A DNA stretch of 64,000 nt from Streptomyces chromofuscus (GTDB lineage Bacteria > Actinomycetota > Actinomycetes > Streptomycetales > Streptomycetaceae), in contig NZ_CP063374.1 of the NCBI RefSeq assembly GCF_015160875.1, positions 3,847,501-3,911,500 of the forward strand. Reading direction: 5' to 3'. Positions 10,927 through 19,763 of this stretch are shown in pieces. Below the pieces are notes generated by a model, which saw only the letters and a list, made by a program, of their open reading frames with translations, was not told where the DNA came from and did not search any database. The position numbers and the translations under genes are program-made. The stretch's first letter is position 1. Each line of letters starts with the position of its first letter.

Positions 10927-11671
10927 CGACGCCTCCACAGGCTGTGGACAACCAGTGCACCGTACGAACCGGTTCACCATGCTGCCACGAAGAACGCGCC
11001 GCAGAGCGGCGGCGGTGCCGCTTGTGATCCCTCGAATGCGCCCCGCGCACTGCCTCGCGCCACCACGAGATACCCCGGAGATACCCCGCGAGCCGCCCGG
11101 CGACGCCCCGCGGAGCGCCCCAACAGCGGCTTGCCGCAGGGCAACTGCGACGCGAATGCGCCCTCGATACGCCCCCCGTCGACCCCCAACGCGCCCTCAA
11201 ACTCCGTGGTGGACGCGGGAATCACGCGCACGGAGCAGGGTCGCTTTTCGGCCAAAACGATTCCGGGCAAGTGCACGTGCATACGTTTCGTGCACGCTCT
11301 GTACAGGCTCTGCGCACCGCTCTGTCGGCGCACGGTCCGGGAGACGGGTTCGCCTCCCGGACCGGTCCGCCGCCCGCGGGGATTGAGGCGGCGGTATCCC
11401 CCAGCCCACTGGTCCAGTACAGCGGGCCGACCCACGCAAGAGCCATGGAACCGCTCCCGAGATGGCCGGAGTAGAGCGCACGGGCGGGCGCACGGCCACA
11501 CACCGGGAGCACGCCACAACTGTGCGTACCGGGACCGTACTTCCGTACGGACCACAATCCCGCCATCCGGAACAATGCCCCTTAACGCTTGGGATGCGGC
11601 GAACTACGCTGGGTTTACGAATGCCGCATGGTTATGCCAGTGCGGCAGCCGTCTGTGTCGAGGGGTGGCGC
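10927..11671. other. 745-bp intergenic region between divergent genes
   Basis: No gene is supported; open frames here lack binding sites and family similarity. I searched both strands for a lasso-type precursor and saw none that convinced me. Visible structure includes a tandem GAGATACCCC-like repeat (about 11067-11086) and an 8-bp palindrome CCGTACGG at 11543-11550. A candidate promoter for the right-hand gene is listed separately. Confidence 0.5.
11582..11610 (+). promoter_or_regulatory. candidate promoter of sporulation-associated gene
   Basis: TTAACG (11582-11587) and TACGCT (11605-11610) are separated by 17 bp, resembling a vegetative -35/-10 pair. Transcription would start near 11617, just before an in-frame ATG at 11621. 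Either a leaderless start at 11621 or a 55-base leader before 11672 is therefore possible. Confidence 0.4.
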
Positions 11672-15653: not shown

Positions 15654-16964
15654 GTGGCGATCAGTCCCCCGTATCCGACGAACCCCGGCGTTCCCGGCGG
15701 CCGCCCCCTGCTGCACGCGCACTGGTGGCAGAAGCGGTGGGTGCGGTACGGCGCGCTGAGCACGCTGCTCGCCCTGTCCGGCCTGGTGATCCTCGCCCTG
15801 GTCCGCGAGCAGACCGGCACCGAGGGCTTCCTGGTCGGCCTCGGCCTCGCGGTCCTCCCCGTGCCGCTGCTGACAGCCGCCTTCCGGTGGCTGGACCGGG
15901 TCGAGCCCGGGCCCTGGCGGAACCTGGTCTTCGCCTTCGCCTGGGGAGCGTGCGCGGCGGCGCTGATAGCCATCGTCGCGAACAGCTTCGCCACCCAGTG
16001 GATAGCGACCGCGACCGCCGACCCGACCAGCGCCGACACCTGGGGCGCCACGGTCATAGCCCCGGTCGTCGAGGAGTCCGCGAAGGCGGCCGCGATCCTG
16101 CTGCTCTTCCTCTTCCGGCGCCGCGACTTCACCGGGATCCTCGACGGCGTCGTCATAGCCGGCGTCACCGCCACCGGCTTCGCCTTCACCGAGAACATCC
16201 TCTACCTCGGCACCGCCTTCGGCACCGACCAGCTGGCCGGCCACAGCGGGATCGCCTCCGTGACCGCCGCTACCTTCTTCGTGCGGGTCGTCATGTCGCC
16301 GTTCGCGCACCCCCTGTTCACCGTGTTCACCGGCATCGCCTTCGGCATCGCCGCGCTCGCCGGGGAACGCCAGCGGCTGCGCCGGATCCTGCTGCCGCCG
16401 GCCGGGCTGCTGCTCGCGATGGGCATGCACGCCTTGTGGAACGGCTCGGCGACCTTCGGCGACTTCGGCTTCTTCGCGGTGTACGGCGGCTTCATGGTCC
16501 CCGCGTTCGGCCTGCTGACCTGGCTGGTGGTCTGGACGCGGCAGCGGGAGCTGCGGACCGTCCGCGAGGAGCTGCCCGCCTACGTCGTCGCCGGCTGGCT
16601 CTCGCCCGCCGAACCGTTCGCCCTCGGCTCGATGCGGGCCCGCCGCCTGGCCCGCGAGTACGCCGGCCACCACCTCGGCAAACCGGCCGCGCGGGCCGTC
16701 GCGCAGTACGAGGCGTACGCCACGTCCCTGGCCTTCCTGCGGCACCGGGGCCGCCGCGGCCGGGCCCGGACCGACTTCGTCGTGCGGGAACGCGAGCTGC
16801 TGAGGGAACTGTGGAACCGCCGTGAGATCGCCCGGCCGGCCCTGGAGTACGCGGCACGCGTGACCGCCCCGCCGATGCCGGCGATGATGCCGCCGGTGTA
16901 CGGCTGGGCGCCGGCGCACGGGCCGACGGCGCCCTACCCGGTGTACAACCCGTACCGGTCGTAG
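15654..16964 (+). CDS. PrsW-family intramembrane metalloprotease
   Basis: A 436-residue integral membrane protein with about eight or nine helices. PrsW hallmarks are visible: PVVEESAK (the EExxK motif, about residue 136), FAFTENILYLG (FxxxEN, about 175), and histidines in FAHPLFTVFTG and MGMHALWNG. PrsW proteases cleave anti-sigma factors in the membrane in Bacillus; actinobacterial substrates are largely unknown. The basic C-terminal tail ends in a Tyr/Pro-rich segment. GTG at 15654 has TAGGGT ending seven bases upstream and no binding site, so it may also be leaderless. Confidence 0.9.
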   Translation: MAISPPYPTNPGVPGGRPLLHAHWWQKRWVRYGALSTLLALSGLVILALVREQTGTEGFLVGLGLAVLPVPLLTAAFRWLDRVEPGPWRNLVFAFAWGACAAALIAIVANSFATQWIATATADPTSADTWGATVIAPVVEESAKAAAILLLFLFRRRDFTGILDGVVIAGVTATGFAFTENILYLGTAFGTDQLAGHSGIASVTAATFFVRVVMSPFAHPLFTVFTGIAFGIAALAGERQRLRRILLPPAGLLLAMGMHALWNGSATFGDFGFFAVYGGFMVPAFGLLTWLVVWTRQRELRTVREELPAYVVAGWLSPAEPFALGSMRARRLAREYAGHHLGKPAARAVAQYEAYATSLAFLRHRGRRGRARTDFVVRERELLRELWNRREIARPALEYAARVTAPPMPAMMPPVYGWAPAHGPTAPYPVYNPYRS

Positions 16965-17083
16965 GACTGCCGGTCGTAGGACACCACGTAGGACACCAGA
17001 GGGCCGCGGACAGCCGAAACCGGCAGCCCTGACGTCGGGGGGTTGCCGTCAGGACCGCCGGGGTTGGAGGGGGAACGCGTTCC

Positions 17084-18133
17084 TTAAGGGGTGAGGCCCT
17101 TGCTCTGCAGCCAGGCCAGCGGGTCGAGTCCGCCGCCGCCGGTGTGCACCTCCAGGTGCAGGTGCGCGCCGGTCACGTTGCCGGTCGCGCCCACGCGGCC
17201 GATGACCTCGCCCGTGGTGACCTTCTGGCCGACGCTGACGCCGATCGACGACTGGTGGGCGTACCAGATCTCGGTGCCGTCGTCGAGGGTCAGCACGGTC
17301 TTGTAGCCGTACGACCCGTTCCAGCCCGCCTCGGTGATGGTGCCGCTGTGCACCGCCTTGATCGGGGTGCCCGTGGGCGCGGCGAAGTCGAGGCCCGTGT
17401 GGTAACCGGACGACCACAGGGCGCCGGCCTGGCCGAAGGTGGAGGTGATGGTGTACGAGGAGGTCGGCAGCGCGTACTGCCTGGCCAGGGCGGCGAGCCG
17501 CTCGGCCTCGGCCTTCTTGCGGGCCTCCTCCTCGGCGAGGGCCTTGGCGGCGGCGGCCTTCTCCTCGGCCTCCTTCTCCGCCTTGGCCGCGGCCTCGGCG
17601 GCGGCCTTCTCGGCGGCGGCCGCGGCCTCCGCTGCGGCCTTGCTCTCGACCTGCTCCTGCTGCTGCTCGGCCTGCGCGATGATGCGGGCACGCAACGCCT
17701 CACCGGCGTCGGTGGTGCCCTCCGCGGTCTCCGCGGGGGTCGCGCCGAGGCTGCTGAGCGGGGCACTCGCGAGCTGGGGCTCGGTGGAGTCTGCGTCCTC
17801 GTCGTCGGACATCAGCGCGCCGACGGAGGGCAGGTCGGGCATGGAGATCGACACCGGCGGCTTGCCCGCGTTCGCACTGGCCATGCCGCCCGCGCCGACC
17901 GCGGCTATGACGCCGACGCCGAGAACGGTGGAGCTGCGGGCGAGTCCACCGCCGCGCTGCTTGCTGACACGGTGCCGACCGCGTACGGGGCGGATGGTCT
18001 CCGCAGTGGGATTCCACTCCTCCCACGGGCCCTCGTCGGTGCGCTGCGCGCCGTAGACGAACGTGTCGGTGCTGTCGGCGGCGCGCTGGCCAGGCACGAA
18101 CGGGGCTTGTGGGGCAGGCCGGTTGGACGCCAC
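17084..18133 (-). CDS. M23-family cell-wall endopeptidase
   Basis: A 349-residue exported peptidoglycan hydrolase. After a basic cytoplasmic N-terminus comes one hydrophobic export segment (STVLGVGVIAAVGAGGMASANA). A long Ala/Glu/Lys coiled coil follows (about residues 130-220), then a LytM/M23 domain with zinc-binding HTGLD and HLHLE motifs. It is expected to cut peptide cross-bridges during growth or spore germination. GTG at 18133 has AAAGGAG nine bases upstream. The transcript leader contains a ydaO-class c-di-AMP riboswitch (18162-18293), so expression should respond to c-di-AMP, as for other Streptomyces wall hydrolases. Confidence 0.95.
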   Translation of the reverse strand: MASNRPAPQAPFVPGQRAADSTDTFVYGAQRTDEGPWEEWNPTAETIRPVRGRHRVSKQRGGGLARSSTVLGVGVIAAVGAGGMASANAGKPPVSISMPDLPSVGALMSDDEDADSTEPQLASAPLSSLGATPAETAEGTTDAGEALRARIIAQAEQQQEQVESKAAAEAAAAAEKAAAEAAAKAEKEAEEKAAAAKALAEEEARKKAEAERLAALARQYALPTSSYTITSTFGQAGALWSSGYHTGLDFAAPTGTPIKAVHSGTITEAGWNGSYGYKTVLTLDDGTEIWYAHQSSIGVSVGQKVTTGEVIGRVGATGNVTGAHLHLEVHTGGGGLDPLAWLQSKGLTP

Positions 18134-18161
18134 GTGGGCGTACTCCTTTCCTTCCTTCTCG

Positions 18162-18293
18162 CCTACCGGGTTAGCTGACGGGTTCGGAGCAGGAAGGTCT
18201 CCTACGCGCGTAAACCAGCCGTACCACTACGGCGGCATACGCCCGATTCACCCCAAGGTGGTGGTTCCCCGGTTCCCTTGTGCGGCCGGTAAG
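18162..18293 (-). ncRNA. ydaO: c-di-AMP riboswitch (ydaO/yuaA class)
   Basis: Read on the minus strand, the leader of the M23 gene has the ydaO consensus elements in order: GGGAACCGGGGAACCA, then TTGGGGTGAATC, a variable stem-loop, and CCGAACCCGTCAGCTAACC. The ends form a perfect 8-bp closing stem, CTTACCGG (18286-18293) with CCGGTAGG (18162-18169), counting one G-U pair. The aptamer ends about 11 bases before the AAAGGAG site, so ligand binding could act on termination or on ribosome access. The class binds cyclic di-AMP and commonly controls resuscitation factors and wall hydrolases in actinobacteria. Confidence 0.93.
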
Positions 18294-18515
18294 GGCCTCG
18301 CGCGGGATTCGGCGCGTGCGCACGGAGCCGCCTCTTGTGACGGCTGGGACGACCGCGCTGCGTTATCGGACGTTAATAGAACCAGGGCCTGATTTCCAAG
18401 CCGTTCCACTTGATCATTAAGGTTTTCCGCCAGGACGTACGGGCCATCAACGACGAAAATCGGGCGAGTTGACCTCCGGTCAGGACCGTACCCATTTCTG
18501 ACTGCATGTCAGTTG

Positions 18516-19763
18516 TCATGCGGAGGGCGTTTGTTCCATCACCCCTGGTGACGGTCGCCGGACGGCGAGCAGAGCCATGTCGTCGGTGGTGCCGCCCTCG
18601 CTGTGCCGGCGAACGTCTTCGGCCACCGCGCAGAGCAGTTCGGCGGGCCCGCCGAAGGTCCGGCCGGCCAGCCGGGCCGCCGGGTCGTAGAAGACGCCCC
18701 GGGCGTCCCGCGCCTCGGACAAGCCGTCCGTGTACAGCAGCAGCGTCGCGCCGCCCGGGAAGCGGGACTCCTCCGCGCGGTCCGGCCAGGAGGCCAGCTC
18801 ACCCATGCCGAGCGGCAGCGCCGCCTGCCGGGCGGGCAGCGGGCGCACCGTGCCGTCGGCGTAGAGCATCAGCGGCGGCGGATGGCCGCGGTTGAGGATG
18901 CGGACGACACCGTCCTCGTGCGGGATCTCGGCGAGTACGGCGGTGGTGAACCCCTCGAAGGCGTCGATCGCGTCCCGTCGCGTGCCCTCGCGCGTCAGCG
19001 CCCGCTCCAGCCGCCGCGCCACCGCCTCCAGCGTCGCCTCGTGCTCGGCGGCCTCCCGGAACGCCCCGACGACCACGGCGACCGCCGCCACCGCCCCCAT
19101 GCCCTTGCCGCGCACGTCCCCCACCACGAGCCGTACGCCGTACCGGCTGTCCTGCACCGCGTACAGATCGCCGCCGATGAAGGCATCCGCCTGCGCGGCC
19201 TCGTAGCGCGCGGCGACCTCGAAGCCGCCGATCCGCTCCATCGGCTCCGGCAGTACCGCCAGCTGGGCGGCCTCGGCGATCTCCCAGGCCGAATGGAGAC
19301 GGGCGTGGCTGCGCCGGACGAGCCCGTTGATCAGCAGGGCGAGGGCGGCGACCGTCACCACGGTGACCTGCTCGGTGAGCGCCTCGACCTGGAGGAGGTC
19401 GCCGTACCGGATGTCCACCGCCATGCCCACGGCGACGGCGGCGACGCCGATGAGAAGCGTGGCCCGGCGGGAAAGAAGCGGTGCGGCGATCAGCGGGGCG
19501 GCGGTGAACAGCGGGGCGGCGCTGAAACCGCGGGGGGTGAGGTAGTCGTAGCAGCCGCCGATGACGACGAGCAGGGCGGGGAGGGCGCGGACGAAGGTGC
19601 GGGCGAAGAAGACCGGCCGTTCCTCGGTGGGCGGCTCGGGCGGCTCGGGGCGCGCGAGCGCGGGGGAGTCACGGGGGCGACCCGAGCCGGGAGCCCCGCC
19701 CTCGGGGAGCCCGCCGCCGGCTCCGGGGTACGGCCGCTCTCCTTCTGCCTCCGCAGGCCGCAC
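18516..19763 (-). CDS. membrane-anchored PP2C (SpoIIE) phosphatase
   Basis: A 415-residue phosphatase. A Pro/Gly-rich cytoplasmic N-terminus precedes about four hydrophobic helices (residues 50-150, e.g. ALPALLVVIGGCYDYL and VTVVTVAALALLINGLV). The PP2C/SpoIIE domain follows: FIGGDLYAVQD, VVGDVRGKGMGAVAAV, ILNRGHPPPLML, LLLYTDGLSEARD and GTTDDMALLAV, retaining the metal-binding aspartates. It is typical of Streptomyces partner-switching phosphatases that act on an anti-anti-sigma factor; none is adjacent. GTG at 19763 follows GGGAGAGGACA. Confidence 0.92.
   Translation of the reverse strand: MRPAEAEGERPYPGAGGGLPEGGAPGSGRPRDSPALARPEPPEPPTEERPVFFARTFVRALPALLVVIGGCYDYLTPRGFSAAPLFTAAPLIAAPLLSRRATLLIGVAAVAVGMAVDIRYGDLLQVEALTEQVTVVTVAALALLINGLVRRSHARLHSAWEIAEAAQLAVLPEPMERIGGFEVAARYEAAQADAFIGGDLYAVQDSRYGVRLVVGDVRGKGMGAVAAVAVVVGAFREAAEHEATLEAVARRLERALTREGTRRDAIDAFEGFTTAVLAEIPHEDGVVRILNRGHPPPLMLYADGTVRPLPARQAALPLGMGELASWPDRAEESRFPGGATLLLYTDGLSEARDARGVFYDPAARLAGRTFGGPAELLCAVAEDVRRHSEGGTTDDMALLAVRRPSPGVMEQTPSA

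Follow-up and report, generated by a model that had tools for sequence, protein, structure and literature searches.

The c-di-AMP (ydaO/yuaA) riboswitch class is already published, as is its location upstream of the cell-wall hydrolase genes of Streptomyces. As described in the accessible parts of the papers cited here, wall hydrolase genes with a c-di-AMP leader number seven in S. coelicolor and six in S. venezuelae (PMC10117811), the loci of the latter species are named in PMC11481543, and six such leaders are tabulated for S. lividans (PMC8079986). For the crystallised ydaO RNA, the last hairpin loop and the 3' tail are complementary and a pseudoknot is described (PMC5393176); on our reading of that paper, these loop and tail stretches are the pseudoknot strands. 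The published level of action is unsettled, with termination reported for rpfA of S. coelicolor and translation for nlpC of C. glutamicum, where reporters indicate translational control and base pairing of a leader CTCC with the GGAG of the ribosome-binding site has been proposed (PMC9960051). Blocking of the ribosome-binding site is attributed to Haiser 2009 and Block 2010 in PMC8079986.

We examined one such leader in a 64,000-nucleotide stretch of the Streptomyces chromofuscus chromosome (the window), for which an initial annotation had proposed a c-di-AMP riboswitch ahead of an M23 peptidase gene, citing conserved blocks and a closing stem and naming a covariance-model search with RF00379 as one check. 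A cmscan search of the whole window upheld this proposal by a large margin, with a match of 86.6 bits (E 8.3e-19) against a gathering score of 38 bits that takes in the full length of the model (positions 1-134 of 134). The P1 stem, formed by CGCC with GGCG, and the conserved core blocks are present in the Rfam alignment and in the sequence (Table 1). The earlier span of 18158-18310 was slightly short, missing one P1 strand and the greater part of the pseudoknot strand in the tail; its distance of about 11 bases to the ribosome-binding site holds when counted from P1, but those bases contain the pseudoknot strand AGGAAGG. The window leader has 27 nt from the end of P1 to the start codon.

Table 1. 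Features of the c-di-AMP leader and its downstream gene (coordinates within the window)
Feature	Coordinates	Strand	Basis or remark
Direct-repeat-like element, TTAACGTCCGATAACG	18361..18376	-	In conserved stretch upstream of aptamer
c-di-AMP (ydaO/yuaA) riboswitch aptamer	18145..18324	-	RF00379 full-length match
P1 5' strand, CGCC	18311..18314	-	Rfam alignment and sequence
P1 3' strand, GGCG	18160..18163	-	Rfam alignment and sequence
Last aptamer hairpin, GGAG-ACCUUCCUG-CUCC; loop supplies one pseudoknot strand	18186..18202	-	
Loop pseudoknot strand, CCUUCCU	18191..18197	-	
Tail pseudoknot strand, AGGAAGG, between P1 and Shine-Dalgarno	18150..18156	-	
Shine-Dalgarno core, AAGGAG	18143..18148	-	Sequence; separated from GTG by 9 nt
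Regulated gene, M23 peptidase, 349 aa, GTG start	17084..18133	-	Peptidase_M23, PF01551

The product of the downstream gene carries a C-terminal Peptidase_M23 domain (PF01551, E 1.1e-28), with lysostaphin and LytM among its solved relatives and with H-x3-D and HLH motifs that we take to be the metal ligands. Matches of the protein to NCBIfam models all fell far under the cut-offs of those models, and it is 91% identical to its counterparts in Streptomyces sp. TRM70350 and S. spinoverrucosus. Convergent with this gene lies one for a PrsW-like membrane protease (15654-16964, plus strand), assigned at 42.3 bits against a curated cut-off of 225 bits.

The initial annotation had tied c-di-AMP to a single muralytic enzyme, which proved too narrow. 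The complete 7.48 Mb chromosome holds seven RF00379 matches above the cut-off, and because all seven leaders precede peptidoglycan hydrolase genes, the target is a set of muralytic enzymes and not one. An M23 peptidase follows three of the seven (the window leader, L002 and L006), NlpC/P60 proteins follow L004 and L007, an SLT domain protein follows L005, and L003 precedes an Rpf-like protein with a transglycosylase-like domain and LysM. This seven-copy regulon agrees with the published Streptomyces counts. The diadenylate cyclase domain of c-di-AMP synthases (DAC, PF02457) occurs once in the genome. More widely, the RF00379 element was present in all 61 Streptomyces genomes searched, with 3 to 8 matches each, and in 91 of 118 genomes sampled across the class. 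In the 30 of these Streptomyces genomes with the best single matches, an M23 peptidase was encoded after the best match in every case (30/30), and the aptamer core GTCAGCT[A/C]ACC stood upstream of 80/80 M23 relatives, these being the closest by protein similarity (the best 80 of 144). Outside Streptomyces, Pfam assigned NlpC/P60 proteins to 16 of the 20 leader genes analysed, out of 22 leaders with long flanks; the other two (L119 and L124) have no called start.

Comparative analysis of the leaders was based on 265 loci (L001-L265), which gave 256 usable leaders and 158 distinct ones. These included the M23 loci, for which the best 80 of 144 relatives were taken, and 120 regions hand-picked from the higher-scoring matches listed in the Streptomyces and class genome searches. 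One locus was left out for want of an anchor (L159), five for want of a usable start (L016, L119, L124, L162 and L200), and L157, L187 and L215 because their tails, as determined by the choice of start, exceeded a limit of 45 nt that we set ourselves; start codons were chosen by script, with those preceded by a Shine-Dalgarno sequence favoured. L157 and L187 have a likely Shine-Dalgarno AGGAG with no ATG, GTG or TTG at normal spacing, and perhaps use a CTG start. The set of 80 M23 leaders referred to below comprises 79 of the best-80-of-144 loci, with L016 masked, together with the window. An outgroup of six plasmid-borne leaders was taken from 33 matched records.

In the window leader the loop strand CCUUCCU is complementary over 7 bp to the tail strand AGGAAGG, which occupies the 11-base gap from the closing stem to the ribosome-binding site. 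We scored each of the 158 distinct leaders by the strongest gap-free helix that its last loop could form with the tail, as far as the start codon; the loop was bounded by its own stem, a looser loop window having picked up pairing with the hairpin stem. In 156 of 158 leaders the pseudoknot helix reached 4 bp or more. The mean helix score was 15.02 for leaders with their own loops, 12.93 (sd 0.16) when loops were swapped between leaders and 10.33 when they were shuffled, and none of 500 swap permutations reached the own-loop value. Swapped loops thus pair fairly well too, as would be expected if the pairing were due to chance, with purine-rich Shine-Dalgarno tails always fitting pyrimidine-rich loops. 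As Shine-Dalgarno composition alone could give such an excess, the analysis was repeated with the Shine-Dalgarno core masked, and own loops again scored above swapped ones (12.60 versus 10.69; 0/500 permutations; n=158). The same held for one leader per genus (n=45), both unmasked (14.23 versus 12.29, z 6.2; 0/2000) and masked (11.07 versus 9.62, z 4.5; 0/2000). Since own loops outscore swapped ones in every permutation, including under masking and with each genus represented once, and since the crystallised ydaO RNA shows complementarity between the matching strands (PMC5393176), chance matching is very improbable. These comparisons of sequence support conservation of the loop-tail pairing by covariation across the class.

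The position of this helix is tied to the Shine-Dalgarno sequence. In the window, AAGGAG begins one base 3' of the pseudoknot strand, and among the 80 M23 leaders (from the best 80 of 144) a single nucleotide separates the two in 79 and none in one, with 9 nt from AAGGAG to the start codon in 78 and 10 nt in two. In the same leaders a linker of 3 to 6 nt separates P1 from the pseudoknot strand; as the gap to the Shine-Dalgarno is fixed and this linker is not, the pseudoknot strand is anchored to the Shine-Dalgarno rather than to P1. Across the 158 distinct leaders, the Shine-Dalgarno core shared 3 nt or more with the pseudoknot strand in 47, overlapped it by 1-2 nt in 33, began 0-3 nt downstream of it in 72 and lay more than 3 nt downstream in four, the remaining two having no 4-bp pseudoknot; overlapping or closely following cores thus account for 152/158. 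This closeness is partly forced by geometry because the tails are short (12-43 nt from the end of P1 to the start, median 27, in the 256 leaders kept after L157, L187 and L215, with tails above 45 nt, were dropped). The M23 leader belongs to the abutting group, with its core beside the pseudoknot strand; L004, an NlpC leader from this genome, has most of its core within that strand. When the Shine-Dalgarno is extended to include GAAAGGAG, it overlaps the pseudoknot strand in 79/80 M23 leaders (from the best 80 of 144), but in the window by one G only, which we have not counted as sequestration.

We propose, with a probability of roughly 0.65, that this ydaO-type switch turns the M23 peptidase OFF at high c-di-AMP, mainly at the level of translation, with the aptamer's own pseudoknot as expression platform. 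The aptamer, judged by its family membership, would bind c-di-AMP; the ligand would then stabilize P1 and the pseudoknot of CCUUCCU with AGGAAGG, a ligand dependence suggested by the known ydaO structures. The helix, ending one base before AAGGAG, would take the G of the extended GAAAGGAG and would sterically prevent 30S binding. When ligand is absent, the purine tail GGAAGGAAAGGAG would be free to serve as a strong ribosome-binding site, such that the pseudoknot would suffice and there would be no separate expression platform. A counterpoint to this translational OFF reading is that the Shine-Dalgarno core of the M23 leaders lies beside the pseudoknot and not in it. A nested fold without the aptamer constraint also pairs the same loop and tail strands, so that thermodynamics alone does not define the ON state, and because the Shine-Dalgarno is largely free in this fold (mean unpaired probability 0.66), the pseudoknot helix may not suffice for the OFF state, which might also require, for example, a stacked aptamer close to the Shine-Dalgarno.

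The initial annotation had left open whether the platform acts by termination or translation; the comparative evidence and the lack of a terminator lead us tentatively to translation. A scan detected no terminator-like site at 17000-18560, no intrinsic terminator of the kind found in Bacillus-type platforms lies between the window aptamer and the start codon, and a U-run between P1 and position +60 of the coding sequence was present in only two of 256 leaders. All six plasmid-borne outgroup leaders, which come from outside the class, are RF00379 matches. The same scan, applied to the Bacillota leaders L266, L268 and L269, detected a terminator-like site starting at most 20 nt from the aptamer end in all three (3/3), with the annotated starts more than 100 nt beyond it, and in the Bacillota leaders L267 and L271 GC-rich repeats followed by U-runs were seen by eye. 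The L267 region, from a Niallia taxi megaplasmid, carries tandem c-di-AMP aptamers (1443-1588 and 1668-1809) after a tRNA cluster. The sixth leader, L270, is cyanobacterial (plasmid pAQ7 of Picosynechococcus sp. PCC 7002) and its riboswitch (1380-1543, 63.9 bits) precedes a gene for a nitrate-type ABC transporter permease.

Alternatively, c-di-AMP may cause premature transcription termination through a non-canonical terminator, other than a hairpin plus U-run, in or just after the aptamer. Such termination was reported in vitro for S. coelicolor rpfA with E. coli RNA polymerase, mutation of disA in S. venezuelae raised rpfA transcripts five-fold (PMC10117811, PMC9960051, in the parts accessible), and the rpfA-like leader L003 of the present genome is built much alike. 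We consider this unlikely given the absence of terminator-like sites and the rarity of U-runs described above, and the room of only 12-43 nt between P1 and start (256 leaders, three longer-tailed ones dropped); moreover, changes in transcript may also result from blocked translation. This last point leads to an explanation at both levels, in which the pseudoknot keeps ribosomes off the mRNA, Rho or RNases can then act on the unprotected transcript, and transcript loss is secondary. It would reconcile translational control in C. glutamicum, where the leader lowers transcript regardless of c-di-AMP (PMC9960051), with the transcript effects on Streptomyces rpfA, but the rpfA effect is called Rho-independent in the literature as cited there (PMC9960051), and we regard this explanation as doubtful, if slightly less so than termination.

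Upstream of the aptamer, positions 18315-18383 (minus strand) hardly vary across 79 aligned Streptomyces M23 loci, the window included. This conserved stretch, which contains TTAACGTCCGATAACG, is probably a promoter or operator; a consensus scan found no sigma-70-like promoter near the window leader. S. coelicolor MtrA recognizes a pair of short direct repeats (PMC5650626, accessible part), and by analogy the stretch is perhaps a candidate operator for MtrA or another regulator of the OmpR type. TTAACGTCCGATAACG is not common to the c-di-AMP leaders of this genome, the best matches in the other six being 9-12 of 16 positions, and it has one further site in the genome, with 2 mismatches. Elsewhere in the window, cmscan identified the Streptomyces small RNA Scr4115 (RF02829) at 11331-11437 on the minus strand (104.1 bits).

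The idea that a leader strand pairs with the ribosome-binding site is not new, since the CTCC-GGAG pairing was already proposed for C. glutamicum; what we add is the class-wide covariation and the fixed junction between pseudoknot and Shine-Dalgarno, for which we found no earlier analysis among the titles and abstract openings listed by searches of the open-access literature. This arrangement predicts that the M23 leader acts on translation and specifies which bases to mutate, and it would explain how one signal of turgor and osmotic state can restrain seven wall-cutting enzymes together.

Here we have compared this locus with the described systems. The window leader and the RF00379 ydaO/yuaA family are alike in P1, the conserved cores and the pseudoknot between last loop and 3' tail. 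Like C. glutamicum nlpC, it is actinobacterial, precedes a wall hydrolase gene and has no canonical terminator, but it differs in that the gene encodes an M23 and not an NlpC protein, the Shine-Dalgarno lies beside the pairing and not inside it, and the pairing is here assigned to the aptamer pseudoknot, with covariation across the class. It shares genus, riboswitch class and a muralytic target with S. coelicolor rpfA, for which, unlike our reading of the window, c-di-AMP-dependent premature termination was reported in vitro (PMC10117811, PMC9960051). In each of the five Bacillota ydaO leaders the aptamer is followed by an intrinsic terminator (detected by the scanner in three, by eye in two), whereas the window leader has none and its Shine-Dalgarno directly follows the pseudoknot strand. 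On balance we lean towards a general pattern in which ydaO-type aptamers across the Actinomycetes dispense with a separate platform and set the 3' pseudoknot strand on or against the Shine-Dalgarno, with control of transcription in Bacillota and of translation in Actinomycetes. Finally, in translational riboswitches of the preQ1-II and SAM-II types the aptamer pseudoknot occupies or abuts the Shine-Dalgarno and there is no separate platform, although their fold and ligand are unrelated to those of the c-di-AMP switch.
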